A stretch of DNA of 64,000 nt, taken from positions 1 through 64,000 of the forward strand of contig CANLTZ010000011.1 in NCBI GenBank assembly GCA_947494145.1, in the 5' to 3' direction. The notes under the pieces are model-generated. The model made no database searches, had not been told where the DNA came from, and saw nothing but the letters and a program-made list of their open reading frames with translations. Both the position numbers and the translations under genes were made by a program. Source of the stretch: an uncultured Jannaschia sp. GTDB lineage: Bacteria > Pseudomonadota > Alphaproteobacteria > Rhodobacterales > Rhodobacteraceae. Shown here in pieces: positions 5,587 to 27,008 of this stretch (positions are counted from its first letter, which is position 1; each line of letters begins with the position of its first letter).

Positions 5587-6207
5587 TCACCCCCAGCGAT
5601 AGTTGAAACTGACGCTGACCCGGTCCTCCTCGGCCATATTCATCGGCACCTCATGCCGAAGCCAGCTTTCCCACAGCAGCAGATGGCCCACTTTCGGGGT
5701 CTCATAGTGGAAGCTGCGCAGGTCCGGCGGTGCATCGGCGCGGCGAGGGGGGGCCGCCATCATCATGGGCAGGCGCGGGTCTTCGAGTTTGAGGGCGGAC
5801 GTGCCCGGCGGCATGGCGACATAGGTCGTACCGGAGATGACGGAATGAGGGTGAAGGTGGCCGGTATGGATGCCGCCTTCGGGCAGGATGTTGATCCAGA
5901 TGTCTTCCAGCGTCAGGGGCTTGTCGCCCAGATCGAAAGCCAGCGCCTCGGCGAAACTGGCGACATGGACATCGAGCGATTTCACCAGGTCGGCGAAGAT
6001 CGGAAAGCGCCAGGGCAGGTCCGACAGCGACGCGTAGGAGGTATAGCCGGGAAAGGCGTTGGCGTCGCACCAATCCTGCCCCGCTTCGTCATCCTCGGCG
6101 ATGGAGAAGCAAGACGTCGCGAGTTCGTCGGCATCGACCTTGGGGCCGTGTTCCGAAAGTGCTGCGCGGTAAAGGCGGGTGGCAAAGAGGGAGGAGATGT
6201 GGGGCAT
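5587..6207 (-). CDS. Putative 2-oxoglutarate/Fe(II) oxygenase of the TIGR02466 type
   Basis: 206 aa from the ATG at 6207; an upstream in-frame ATG at 6309 overlaps the VWA gene and adds unrelated sequence. The central GGIHTGHLHPHSVISGTTYV matches the metal-binding H-x-HP segment of TIGR02466-type proteins. The C-terminal WLRHEVPMN plus RVSVSFNYRW supplies the distal histidine and the arginine expected to bind 2-oxoglutarate. Substrate is unknown. The gene is the middle one of three inserted between rplP and rpmC. Confidence 0.8.
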   Translation of the reverse strand: MPHISSLFATRLYRAALSEHGPKVDADELATSCFSIAEDDEAGQDWCDANAFPGYTSYASLSDLPWRFPIFADLVKSLDVHVASFAEALAFDLGDKPLTLEDIWINILPEGGIHTGHLHPHSVISGTTYVAMPPGTSALKLEDPRLPMMMAAPPRRADAPPDLRSFHYETPKVGHLLLWESWLRHEVPMNMAEEDRVSVSFNYRWG

Positions 6208-24921: not shown

Positions 24922-25431
24922 GCCGGTTGTGGTGGCATGGTGCGAGGCCGAGCCACAAGGGGTCTTGGATCGCAGATGGGTTGGCGTCTTGGCTGGCGCC
25001 CGACGGCGACTGTCTGCCGTCAGCACCAATGAGACAGTTTAGGTCGATTTGATAAGGGAGGGTTTCTGGCGCATCGTAACCACCAAGAAGTGGAGATGAG
25101 ACAGAAACCCGGAACACGTAAGAGCCACGGCGAGAAGGTCGTAAAGGACATCCGCATGCGACCCGCAAACAGTATTCGCCCGAAGAAAAGATCAGGATTG
25201 TGCTGGACGGTTTGAAGGGCGAGGACAGCATTGCTGAGCTATGCCGCTGTGAGGGCATTGCCTAGAGCTTATATTACAGTTGGTCGAAGGAATTCTTTGA
25301 GGCCGGAAAACGGCGCTTGGCGGGCGATACGGTGCGCGCGGCAACTTCGACTGAAGTCAAAGACCTGCGTCGGGAATCTCGCGATCTCAAGAAGGTCGTG
25401 GCAGAGCAGGCTTTGGAGCTGCGTTCGTCGG

Positions 25432-25456
25432 GGAATTGATCCCCCGGATCAATTCC
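25432..25456. repeat. Palindromic insertion of a different type in orfA
   Basis: GGAATTGATCC and GGATCAATTCC form a perfect 11-bp stem around CCC. Transposases of this family read ...ELR-LL-KKSM at this point, so about 42 nt (roughly 25425-25469) appear to have been inserted. The arms do not match the six double-hairpin repeats, so this is a separate kind of insertion. Confidence 0.6.
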
Positions 25457-25490
25457 TGATCCTCCTTACCTCAAAAAAAGCATGATCGCC

Positions 25491-25531
25491 CCCTCTCGTG
25501 ACATTGCTGCGCAATGCACTGCCGGGCAATG
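25491..25531 (-). repeat. Double-hairpin mini-repeat, copy 1 (41 nt, reverse)
   Basis: Read on the minus strand: left arm CATTGCCCGGCAG, hairpin ATTGC-GCA-GCAAT, right arm CGAGAGGG. Removing exactly 41 nt restores the orfA frame at MIA|DGGDDA-stop. Confidence 0.8.
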
Positions 25532-25558
25532 GATGGGGGCGACGACGCATGAGGTATC

Positions 25559-25603
25559 TATTGCCCGGCAGGTGATTTGGCCAAGCCAAATCTGCCGAGA
25601 GGG
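25559..25603 (+). repeat. Double-hairpin mini-repeat, copy 2 (about 45 nt, forward)
   Basis: Left arm TATTGCCCGGCAG, the longest variable hairpin ATTTGGC-CAA-GCCAAAT, right arm CTGCCGAGAGGG. It interrupts the start of orfB after MRY. Confidence 0.75.
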
Positions 25604-25913
25604 CGGCATTCGAGAAGCTGGAGATCATCCGACTCGTCGAAGGGTCACATCTGCCGACCAAGCGCACACTGGACAGACTGGGCATTCCTAGGACGACGTT
25701 CTACCGCTGGTATGATCGTTACTTGGCTGGTGGCCCCGAGGCACTTGAGGATCGCAACCCGAGGCCATCCCGCGTCTGGACCCGCATTCCCAAACCGGTT
25801 CGCGAGAAGGTCAAGGACTTGGCGCCAAAGGAAAGCGATCTTTTCGCCGCGCGAACTGGCCGCGCGCTTCACTGACACGGAAAAGTATTTTGTATCAGAG
25901 GTTTCGGTCTATC

Positions 25914-25954
25914 CACTGCCCGGCAGGGTATTGCGCAGCAATGTCCCGAGAGGG
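25914..25954 (+). repeat. Double-hairpin mini-repeat, copy 3 (41 nt, forward)
   Basis: Left arm CACTGCCCGGCAG (itself a CTGCC-C-GGCAG hairpin), hairpin ATTGC-GCA-GCAAT, right arm CCCGAGAGGG. Its removal restores orfB at SVYR|VLKSYDLITSPAY. Confidence 0.8.
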
Positions 25955-26052
25955 GCGTCCTCAAGTCCTACGATCTGATCACCAGTCCGGCCTATGTGGT
26001 TTTGCCAGCAGCCGATGAGTTCAAGGACAAGACCACGCGGCCAAACGAGTTG

Positions 26053-26093
26053 CTCCTCTCGGCAGATTGCTGCGTAATCGCCTGTCGGGCAAC
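26053..26093 (-). repeat. Double-hairpin mini-repeat, copy 4 (41 nt, reverse)
   Basis: Read on the minus strand: GTTGCCCGACAG, hairpin GATTAC-GCA-GCAATC with one mismatch, CTGCCGAGAGG. Its removal restores NEL|WQTDFTYLK, so it sits two codons before the first catalytic Asp. Confidence 0.8.
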
Positions 26094-26186
26094 TGGCAGA
26101 CCGACTTCACCTATCTCAAGGTTATCGGTTGGGGCTGGTTCTATCTATCGACCATCCTTGACGACTACAGCCGTTACATCATCGCC

Positions 26187-26227
26187 CACTGACCGGTAGG
26201 GTCATGCATGGCATGATCCCGAGAGGG
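26187..26227 (+). repeat. Double-hairpin mini-repeat, copy 5 (41 nt, forward)
   Basis: Left arm CACTGACCGGTAG, hairpin TCATGC-ATG-GCATGA, right arm CCCGAGAGGG. The stem sequence differs from copies 1 and 3 on both sides yet still pairs. Its removal rejoins YIIA and KLCTTMK. Confidence 0.8.
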
Positions 26228-26449
26228 AGGAAGCTCTGCACCACGATGAAGGCCGACGATGTAACCGACACGTTCGACATGGCATTGCAGGCTTCGGGTT
26301 GTGATCAGGCAACCGTACTGCACAAGACGCGCCTGCTCAGCGACAATGGCGCCAGTTACATCTCTGGTGAACTGGCCAATTGGCTGGGAGATCAACAGAT
26401 GGACCATGTCCGAGGCGCCCCGTATCACCCCCAAACCCAAGGCAAGATC

Positions 26450-26487
26450 CCTCTCATGGTTTGCAAGCAAACCACTGCCGGGCAGTG
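26450..26487 (-). repeat. Double-hairpin mini-repeat, copy 6 (38 nt, reverse)
   Basis: Read on the minus strand: CACTGCCCGGCAG, hairpin TGGTTTGC-TT-GCAAACCA, TGAGAGG. Its removal restores QGKI|ERW, so it sits directly before the catalytic Glu codon. Confidence 0.8.
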
Positions 26488-26771
26488 GAGCGCTGACACC
26501 AGACCCTGAAGAACCGCATTCTGCTGGAAAACTACTACATGCCCGGCGATCTCAGGCAGTAGATCGGCGCCTTTGTCGATCATTACAACCACCGGCGCTA
26601 TCACGAGAGCCTGCAAAATCTTACCCCGGCCGATGTCTACTTCGGACGCGGCCAAACCATCCTGAAACAACGACAACGGATTAAACGGAAGACCATCGAA
26701 ACCCGGCGCTTGCTTCACCGCAAAGCCGCCGCATGATCAGACAAACCAGATGCGCCAGATCCTCTCTTAGC

Positions 26772-27008
26772 TCAGGCCGCAATCTGCTCCAAAACCCATG
26801 ACGACGGACACTCGGGCAAGGTGAAGATCGGTCGATAGGTCACGCTGCGGCGCTTTCGGCTGACGTTTTTGCGCAGTTCCACGCGGGCAACCGTCGCGGT
26901 CTTCCGGGGGCTGCGGCAGAACGCACGCGTCTGCTTGCCGACATGCCATCCCGACACCATCAGCACCGAGCCGATGACGCTCACCATTATGGCGATGGTA
27001 CTGTCCAT
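26772..27008 (-). pseudogene. DUF3592-like gene truncated by the IS
   Basis: 78 codons. One N-terminal membrane segment (STIAIMVSVIGSVLMVSGWHV) is followed by TATVARVELRKN...SVTYRPIFTL, the pattern of a DUF3592 membrane protein (value-A-V then YRPxF). Such proteins are normally longer, with a second membrane segment. The stop codon here is the terminal TGA of the IS inverted repeat, so the reading frame seems to have lost its 3' end by insertion. The family call rests on a short match. Confidence 0.5.

Follow-up and report, generated by a model that had tools for sequence, protein, structure and literature searches.

The window, that is, the whole stretch of 64,000 nucleotides that was analysed, contains a decayed IS3-family transposon in which the transposase gene is broken by six copies of a short palindromic segment, termed here the mini-element, three in each orientation. 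The features of the locus, with the evidence by which each was placed, are as follows.

25080..26760 (about), forward strand: decayed IS3-family transposon, host of the six copies; end-to-end alignment with annotated IS3 transposases
25428..25469, forward strand: seventh segment, 42 nt, unrelated to the six copies, with hairpin GGAATTGATCC/GGATCAATTCC; insert relative to both relatives, with a like segment in another genus at locus L090
25491..25531, reverse strand: mini-element copy 1, 41 nt; covariance-model match with flanks at 25490-25532, insert relative to both relatives
25559..25603, forward strand: mini-element copy 2, 45 nt, variable stem longer; covariance-model match at 25558-25604, 45-nt insert
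25914..25954, forward strand: mini-element copy 3, 41 nt, near consensus; covariance-model match at 25913-25955, insert at target GTCTATC|GC
26054..26094, reverse strand: mini-element copy 4, 41 nt, ends mutated; covariance-model match at 26053-26095, 41-nt insert
26187..26227, forward strand: mini-element copy 5, 41 nt; covariance-model match at 26186-26228, 41-nt insert
26449..26487, reverse strand: mini-element copy 6, about 38-39 nt, no bulged T in the stem; covariance-model match at 26448-26488, 38-nt insert

The two relatives that serve as reference IS3 transposases, from Yoonia sp. SS1-5 (L307) and Ruegeria sp. THAF33 (L308), are 84% and 81% identical to the window sequence outside the gaps, respectively. 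Judged from its nonsense changes, small indels, and inserts, the window transposon is dead. All six segments are missing from both relatives, with insert lengths of 41, 45, 41, 41, 41, and 38 nt in order, and no target duplication was found at any of the six in these alignments. The first-pass annotation of this DNA had described six segments at these places and in these orientations, with shared arms around a variable paired stem, four of them exactly 41 nt long and none with a target duplication, and had taken them for insertions rather than parts of the insertion sequence. The sequence, the covariance-model matches, and the relatives that lack the segments bear out each of these points.

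The 42-nt segment upstream of copy 1 is possibly a second type of mini-element. Its hairpin AATTGATCC..GGATCAATT, at 25428-25469 in the window, is also found in L090 (about 1895-1945) and L287 (1315-1360), and in the window and L090 it is followed by a nearly identical CTGATCCTCCTT tail. Further matches to the hairpin lie in L020, L141, L266, L280, L288, and L289; the window genome contains one exact copy.

One irregular hairpin closed by its two ends

Folding of 68 distinct 41-nt copies with RNAalifold returned, unprompted, the nested hairpin .....(((....(((((((((...)))))).)))....))). It is composed of an unpaired 5' tail (CRYTG), a 3-bp closing helix (MCC/GGK) that joins the left part to the very 3' end, a GGCA/GAGA internal loop, a variable stem that includes a bulged T, and a 3-nt loop. 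The copies were picked from 121 distinct 41-nt copies to include all 17 non-C types, so that type frequencies in this set are not natural. Double changes occur in 9 of the 12 pairs, and the paired cells amount to 98.5%, compared to 77.1% after shuffling and 29-54% when the pairing is slid. Double-changed cells number 133 versus 30 in shuffled alignments; two coarse covariation measures stood out less (41 and 56 of 500 shuffles as high). With 24 distinct copies, the paired-cell share, the double-changed cells, and a covariation score were each reached by none of 500 shuffles, and two coarser measures were unremarkable (196 and 148 of 500 as high). At the level of the alignments, these comparisons demonstrate a single irregular hairpin whose two ends pair to close it, rather than the double hairpin originally proposed.

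A two-hairpin model still pairs 96.1% of the cells in the 68 copies, because the variable stem is common to both models; the difference between them rests on the left part. The left hairpin of the first-pass annotation, CTGC/GCAG, lacks covariation support in this set, with its inner pair broken in 16 of the 68 copies and a single double-changed cell. A pseudoknot that combines the end-joining pair described below with this left hairpin was considered and dropped, given the broken inner pair and the greater simplicity of the nested fold. DNA folds of single copies lend the hairpin less support: the five strands computed gave z scores of -0.98 (twice), -0.64, -3.93, and -2.0, and the nested fold was the minimum in only one of the five (L096).

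The key result is the end-joining pair between the third core base (L3) and the last base (R7). It was scored in 250 rows. Some of these, like some in a second set of 236 rows, are mutated copies or occupy homologous positions in related transposons, and a few probably match by chance. The pair is C-G in 205 rows, A-T in 19, G-C in 8, T-A in 1, and other in 17; Watson-Crick pairing in 233 of 250 rows was reached by none of 20,000 permutations. There are 159 distinct middles among the 250 rows, a set whose stem score misses some short-stem copies. The variable stem is nearly free of wobble pairing, with 1396 Watson-Crick, 24 G.T, and 20 mismatched cells (1440 in total). Of 160 standard copies, 150 have the bulged T. 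Position by position, the CRYTG tail fits 212-229 of the 236 rows. A first census had kept 210 of 244 candidates by a stem filter; the 236- and 250-row sets used other mismatch limits, with one row per flank.

When 315 genomes were scanned specifically for copies lacking the C-G pair, 66 matches were listed, compared to about 28 for the reversed control, so the pattern has a background to which many of these matches belong. Among the 16 with a middle that passes a fixed folding score, the closing pair is A-T in 9, G-C in 4, T-A in 1, and A-A in 2, i.e., paired in 14 of 16; among the 50 below the fold score, 18 are paired, about the one third expected by chance. A looser reading by eye gave A-T 15, G-C 5, T-A 2, and A-A 2. 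The scan shares genomes with the 250-row set and is not independent of that result.

Natural empty sites and target preference

Eleven natural empty sites were compared, six for the window copies and five in other genomes, and the inserts measure 41 nt at seven of them and 38-45 nt at the rest. At 95% identity, Sulfitobacter SK025 has an IS30 without the two copies that sit in its counterpart in Sulfitobacter pontiacus BL28 (inserts of 40 and 42 nt). For the two copies (41 nt each) inside an IS5 of D. shibae, P. pantotrophus provides the empty counterpart, and for the single copy (41 nt) inside an IS3 of S. pontiacus W028, S. dubius does so. S. pontiacus S1704 has no element-sized gap at either of the two BL28 sites and therefore contributes no empty site. 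Target duplication was found at none of the 11 sites, and the alignments of filled and empty sequences establish each copy there as an insertion without target duplication.

The sequence 5' of the insert belongs to the host and is present in the empty sites. Across 205 C-type rows, RTC is favoured in this flank, with T in 73% and C in 78% at the last two places and A or G in 86% before them, and the host base that follows the insert is G in 77%. Read directly at the 11 empty sites, RTC precedes the insert at six and is absent from five. The next host base also varies with L3: it is G in 162 of 211 C-type copies and T in 18 of 26 A-type copies, the latter fraction overstating the number of independent events because the A-type rows include homologous sites. 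The base expected from this rule is seen in only 1 of 10 G-type copies (host C) and in none of 3 T-type copies, so that a full guide rule is not shown. At the S. dubius empty site, the T after the insertion point is already there. Copy 5 in the window has A as its third core base (TGACC) and G as its last base, and the next host base is T in both relatives.

In seven loci from different genomes (L017, L020, L021, L030, L036, L070, and L078), copies with differing stems occupy seemingly one position of IS5-type transposase genes, as suggested by similar flanks and with the gene type judged by eye. This observation suggests a hot spot or repeated insertion.

Copies in the window genome, the Rhodobacteraceae, and beyond

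In the 4.9-Mb genome to which the window belongs, the pattern TGCCCGGCAG-N12..35-CGAGAGGG gave 8 matches and its reversed control 0, in line with the earlier view that the segments are too regular for random decay. A covariance model built from 25 copies found 27 matches at E<0.001, or 28 when the limit was relaxed to E<=1, which confirms that further copies exist in this genome. At least 22 of the 27 lie inside or directly beside transposase or recombinase genes. This count comprises the six in the window IS3, 13 others placed by Pfam (L041, L042, L044, L045, L046, L051, L052, L053, L055, L058, L060, L061, and L062, of which L051 has a weak match below the curated cut-off and L053 was placed via a piece identical to that of L052), and three placed by blastn (L039, L056, and, by an adjacent fragment, L063). 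Not counted are L043, L048, L050, L059, and L064, the last of which borders an AhpC/TSA gene. The genes that host or adjoin copies are of the IS3, IS5, IS6, IS21, IS630, and integrase types; the names IS6, IS21, and IS630 follow from the Pfam families matched.

Copies in this genome are clustered. Sixteen of the 27 have a neighbour within 1 kb, forming 20 such pairs versus 0.14 expected under uniform placement, and the six-copy transposon alone accounts for 15 of the 20. If only about 150 kb (an assumed figure) tolerated insertions, about 5 close pairs would be expected, and survival in dispensable DNA could thus account for a large part of the close spacing seen elsewhere than in the six-copy transposon. 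In a screen of neighbouring copies for a gene that they might carry between them, most were 100-900 bp apart, and a few wider pairs enclosed open reading frames (ORFs) of 240-431 codons. Beside the mini-element in L063 (1246-1302) lies a stretch of about 55 nt that is 85-95% identical in several Rhodobacteraceae plasmids, mostly outside annotated genes, and is possibly another small repeat or the end of an insertion sequence.

Across the family, the covariance model finds copies in 155 of 394 genomes at E<=0.001, window genome included, under strict filters and with no more than 16 candidates given a score in any genome. With a somewhat looser pattern, 11 of 30 genomes were matched (the window genome among them, all 11 in one genus), and the controls gave no match. 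A blastn search with one copy returned 96 plasmid records, including 39 from Pseudosulfitobacter and 18 from Sulfitobacter; the ten genera named among the plasmid matches listed all belong to the Roseobacter group, and the tally holds seven more genera. A scan of named genomes yielded at least 119 stretches, 80 of them listed by name and the other 39 analysed without one, mostly from Rhodobacterales with a background of unrelated taxa. Among the eight genomes behind outlying loci, six were matched at E<=0.1: Labrenzia (6 matches), Cohaesibacter (10), a Rhodospirillales metagenome-assembled genome (MAG; 10), an alphaproteobacterial MAG (8), and two others in which a lone weak match was seen. 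By these matches, the mini-element is also present in some alphaproteobacteria outside the Rhodobacteraceae. The dispersal of many copies, together with the natural pair of Sulfitobacter sequences with and without the element, upholds the proposal of a mobile or dispersed mini-element with a preserved structure.

The Rhodospirillales MAG (L105) contains one clear and three weak copies outside long ORFs, two of them just after one ORF that we take, from its sequence, to be enoyl-CoA-hydratase-like, and the preference for transposon genes is therefore not universal. The relatives of the mini-element at 2838-2935 and 6002-6111 of this locus are paired outside long ORFs, like classical REPs. Among viral loci, 5 of 31 score above 55 bits, and clear copies are seen in the viral contigs L422, L424, L426, L435, and L444.

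Some carrier transposons have, by sequence comparison, been copied with the element inside. On D. shibae pDSHI04, three copies of an element-carrying transposon are 99.9-100% identical over about 919-926 bp, and element-carrying transposons are also multi-copy in genomes G369 (97.5-99.5%) and G104 (97.9-99.6%). The pDSHI04 transposon (L303, 1342-2266) is of the IS5 type and has two mini-elements and a stop codon in its three identical or near-identical copies; these dead copies apparently spread in trans or by recombination.

Candidate mechanisms and known systems

Three enzyme families were considered as possible mobilisers. Y1 (PF01797) occurs in 39 of the 394 genomes and 27 of the 155 carriers, Y2 (PF04986) in 46 and 29, and the reverse transcriptase family RVT_1 (PF00078) in 115 and 53. 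Each is absent from most carriers, so none is required, and the suggestion that a RAYT-like or reverse transcriptase gene might track the repeat does not hold, since the association is too loose. None of the three was found in the element-rich genomes G137, G275, G291, and G349, and the window genome gave partial Y1 and Y2 matches only and no RVT_1 match. Carriers are enriched among genomes with Y1 (27 of 39; odds ratio 4.0, p 1e-4) and Y2 (29 of 46; odds ratio 3.0), and both families most likely mark transposon-rich genomes and regions, a lost or trans-acting Y1 enzyme being the less likely reading. A clear copy was nearby at one of 30 Y1 loci (one locus each from 30 of the 39 genomes), and a copy was nearby at 5 of 30 Y2 loci (E<0.01). 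The single Y1 case, L223, has an intact Y1 gene between a clear and a weak copy in inverted orientation, whose distances to the Y1 match are about 0.6 and 0.15 kb. Its interpretation as a REPtron was rejected, as the Y1 gene appears by eye to have its own terminal hairpins amid other transposon debris. On contig C31 of the window genome, a copy and a Y1 fragment are separated by about 0.5 kb. The boundaries of near-identical IS91 copies in three genomes, where three of six comparisons aligned, share no ends with the mini-element.

We favour the interpretation, to which we assign a probability of roughly 0.6, that these inserts represent a REP-like, non-autonomous mini-element, which is spread among Rhodobacteraceae and other alphaproteobacteria and is moved as a single strand. 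Its likeness to a REP element or an IS200/IS605 end suggests that it is probably a single-stranded-DNA element residing beside the short target RTC|G, or |T for the A-type. An HUH-type single-strand nuclease/strand-transferase, or an enzyme that acts in a similar way, would recognise the shape of the element (tail, internal loop, and bulge) and not the sequence of its stem. The enzyme would cut the strand once at each end, while base pairing keeps the 3' end in place, and would rejoin it to a single-stranded target as in IS200/IS605 and REP/TnpA-REP, the CRYTG tail occupying the position of the guide. Copies would land or persist mainly in transposon genes because these tolerate them, and some would then multiply as passengers of the host transposon. 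Many hosts may have lost the enzyme, or it may work in trans.

Alternatively, the copies could be fossils of an old IS200/IS605- or RAYT-type family that a normal Y1 transposase moved before being lost from most hosts. The mechanism would be that of the favoured interpretation, and the differences lie in the enzyme and in the movement being over. A 5' tail, a bulged irregular hairpin, a preference for a short 5' target, and the lack of target duplication fit such an origin, as do the enrichment of Y1 genes in carriers and the Y1 sequences near copies in L223 and on C31. However, the similar enrichment of Y2 means that both may simply mark transposon-rich genomes, the near-absence of copies from Y1 loci is hard to reconcile with it, and presence and absence at 95% identity in Sulfitobacter argue for fairly recent movement; we consider this origin unlikely. 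A bolder proposal, and one we hold to be distinctly unlikely, is a self-guided single-strand element of about 41 nt, in which L3 would both pair with the element's own 3' end and set the adjoining host base (G for the C-type, T for the A-type). It would depend on an enzyme that belongs to none of the known single-strand transposase families and would prey chiefly on transposons, disabling insertion sequences. The same host-base relationship in C-type and A-type copies is reminiscent of exon-intron guide pairing and, with the covariation expected of a structured RNA, would be in keeping with spread via an RNA intermediate by reverse transcription or reverse splicing, the hairpin being an RNA structure and the 3'-end pairing resembling an intron guide. 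Spread by this route is more doubtful still: RVT_1 is found in about a third of carriers and is without a match in the window genome, G-type copies rarely show the expected host C, no Rfam family matches at the gathering score within 25000-27000, and, as a weak argument, G.T pairs are few (24 of 1440 cells, 12 of them at one position).

It is very improbable that the segments are functional parts of the transposons, whether removed from RNA, bypassed by ribosomes, or regulatory. Carriage evidently does not stop amplification, as the near-identical multi-copy carriers on D. shibae pDSHI04 and in G369 and G104 indicate, but transposase-annotated relatives of four transposons are without the segment, the insert lengths are mostly not multiples of three, and six inserts occur in one transposon, leaving this explanation largely refuted. 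Splicing and ribosomal bypass in particular were dropped because the carriers examined (window, D. shibae, and G369) also have other nonsense changes or frameshifts. An origin by chance palindromes or transposon decay is refuted: although the host transposon is decayed, the same sequence and structure recur at many unrelated sites in many genera, and reversed-pattern controls gave zero.

If it is mobile in the manner of the favoured interpretation, the mini-element would be a very small mobile DNA unit that is widespread in an ecologically important bacterial group. As far as the open-access literature searched shows, it is undescribed, in agreement with the first-pass annotation. The words Rhodobacter, Paracoccus, and Roseobacter do not occur in the main text of a 2025 REP survey (PMC12306157), nor do Rhodobacter, Paracoccus, and Dinoroseobacter in the main text of the paper on CGTC REPs (PMC3733652). 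Because all four Watson-Crick closing pairs occur naturally, a set of test molecules is already available, and the movement of REP-like palindromes without a dedicated transposase becomes directly testable by experiment. Should the concentration in insertion sequences of the window genome reflect targeting, the element would represent a natural brake on transposons.

Classical miniature inverted-repeat transposable elements (MITEs) have the terminal inverted repeats of an insertion sequence, cause a target duplication, and are far larger than about 41 nt. The mini-element resembles them in being non-autonomous and dispersed and differs in all three of these properties. Insertion of IS608 occurs 3' of a short target without duplication, and the mini-element likewise inserts without duplication, with a preference for a short target on its 5' side. 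Unlike IS200/IS605 elements, it has no coding capacity, measures about 41 nt in all, contains one hairpin, and has no transposase that was found. IS608 moves as single-stranded DNA and chooses a 4-nt target by base pairing with the element (PMC5934647). More generally, the enzymes of IS200/IS605 elements and REPs bind a hairpin, and pairing with a guide 5' of it determines where they cut (PMC8266576 and PMC5934647).

With GTAG REPs and their TnpA-REP/RAYT enzymes, the mini-element shares a short imperfect palindrome, many dispersed copies, and an unpaired 5' tag followed by a bulged hairpin. In REPs, the tag has been put forward as a guide for where cleavage takes place, a role demonstrated for one enzyme, and the bulge is required in the E. 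coli REP (PMC8266576). In contrast to GTAG REPs, the mini-element has the tag CRYTG, an internal loop of 4x4, and a closing helix in which its 3' end takes part; it lies mostly inside transposon genes in the window genome and not in extragenic positions, and 128 of 155 carriers have no PF01797 match where a resident Y1 would be expected. It is not a GTAG REP on tag, location, or enzyme. Of the overall interpretation offered earlier, insertion, dispersal, and a kept structure stand; the double hairpin is not supported, and neither is a size much below that of REPs, which are given as 20-40 bp in PMC3733652.

According to the same paper, CGTC REPs, dRS3, and Rickettsia RPE-4 and RPE-6 are, for most families, alphaproteobacterial and without a dedicated transposase, a property that the mini-element shares with CGTC REPs insofar as none was found, and how such palindromes move is a question raised there for CGTC REPs (PMC3733652). 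The mini-element is set apart from these families, by their description only, in stem design. Moreover, its RTC is, by the empty sites, host target sequence and not part of the element, as opposed to the tag of CGTC-tagged REPs. A close functional parallel, in a likeness not drawn from sequence, is GC42 of yeast mitochondria, described as a 42-nt mobile palindrome of unsettled mechanism that is flanked by short direct repeats; in related GC clusters, a short 5' part is conserved and the rest varies (PMC4478555). By analogy with these systems, the mini-element would belong with the short palindromic mobile elements and may work like a REP or an IS200/IS605 end.
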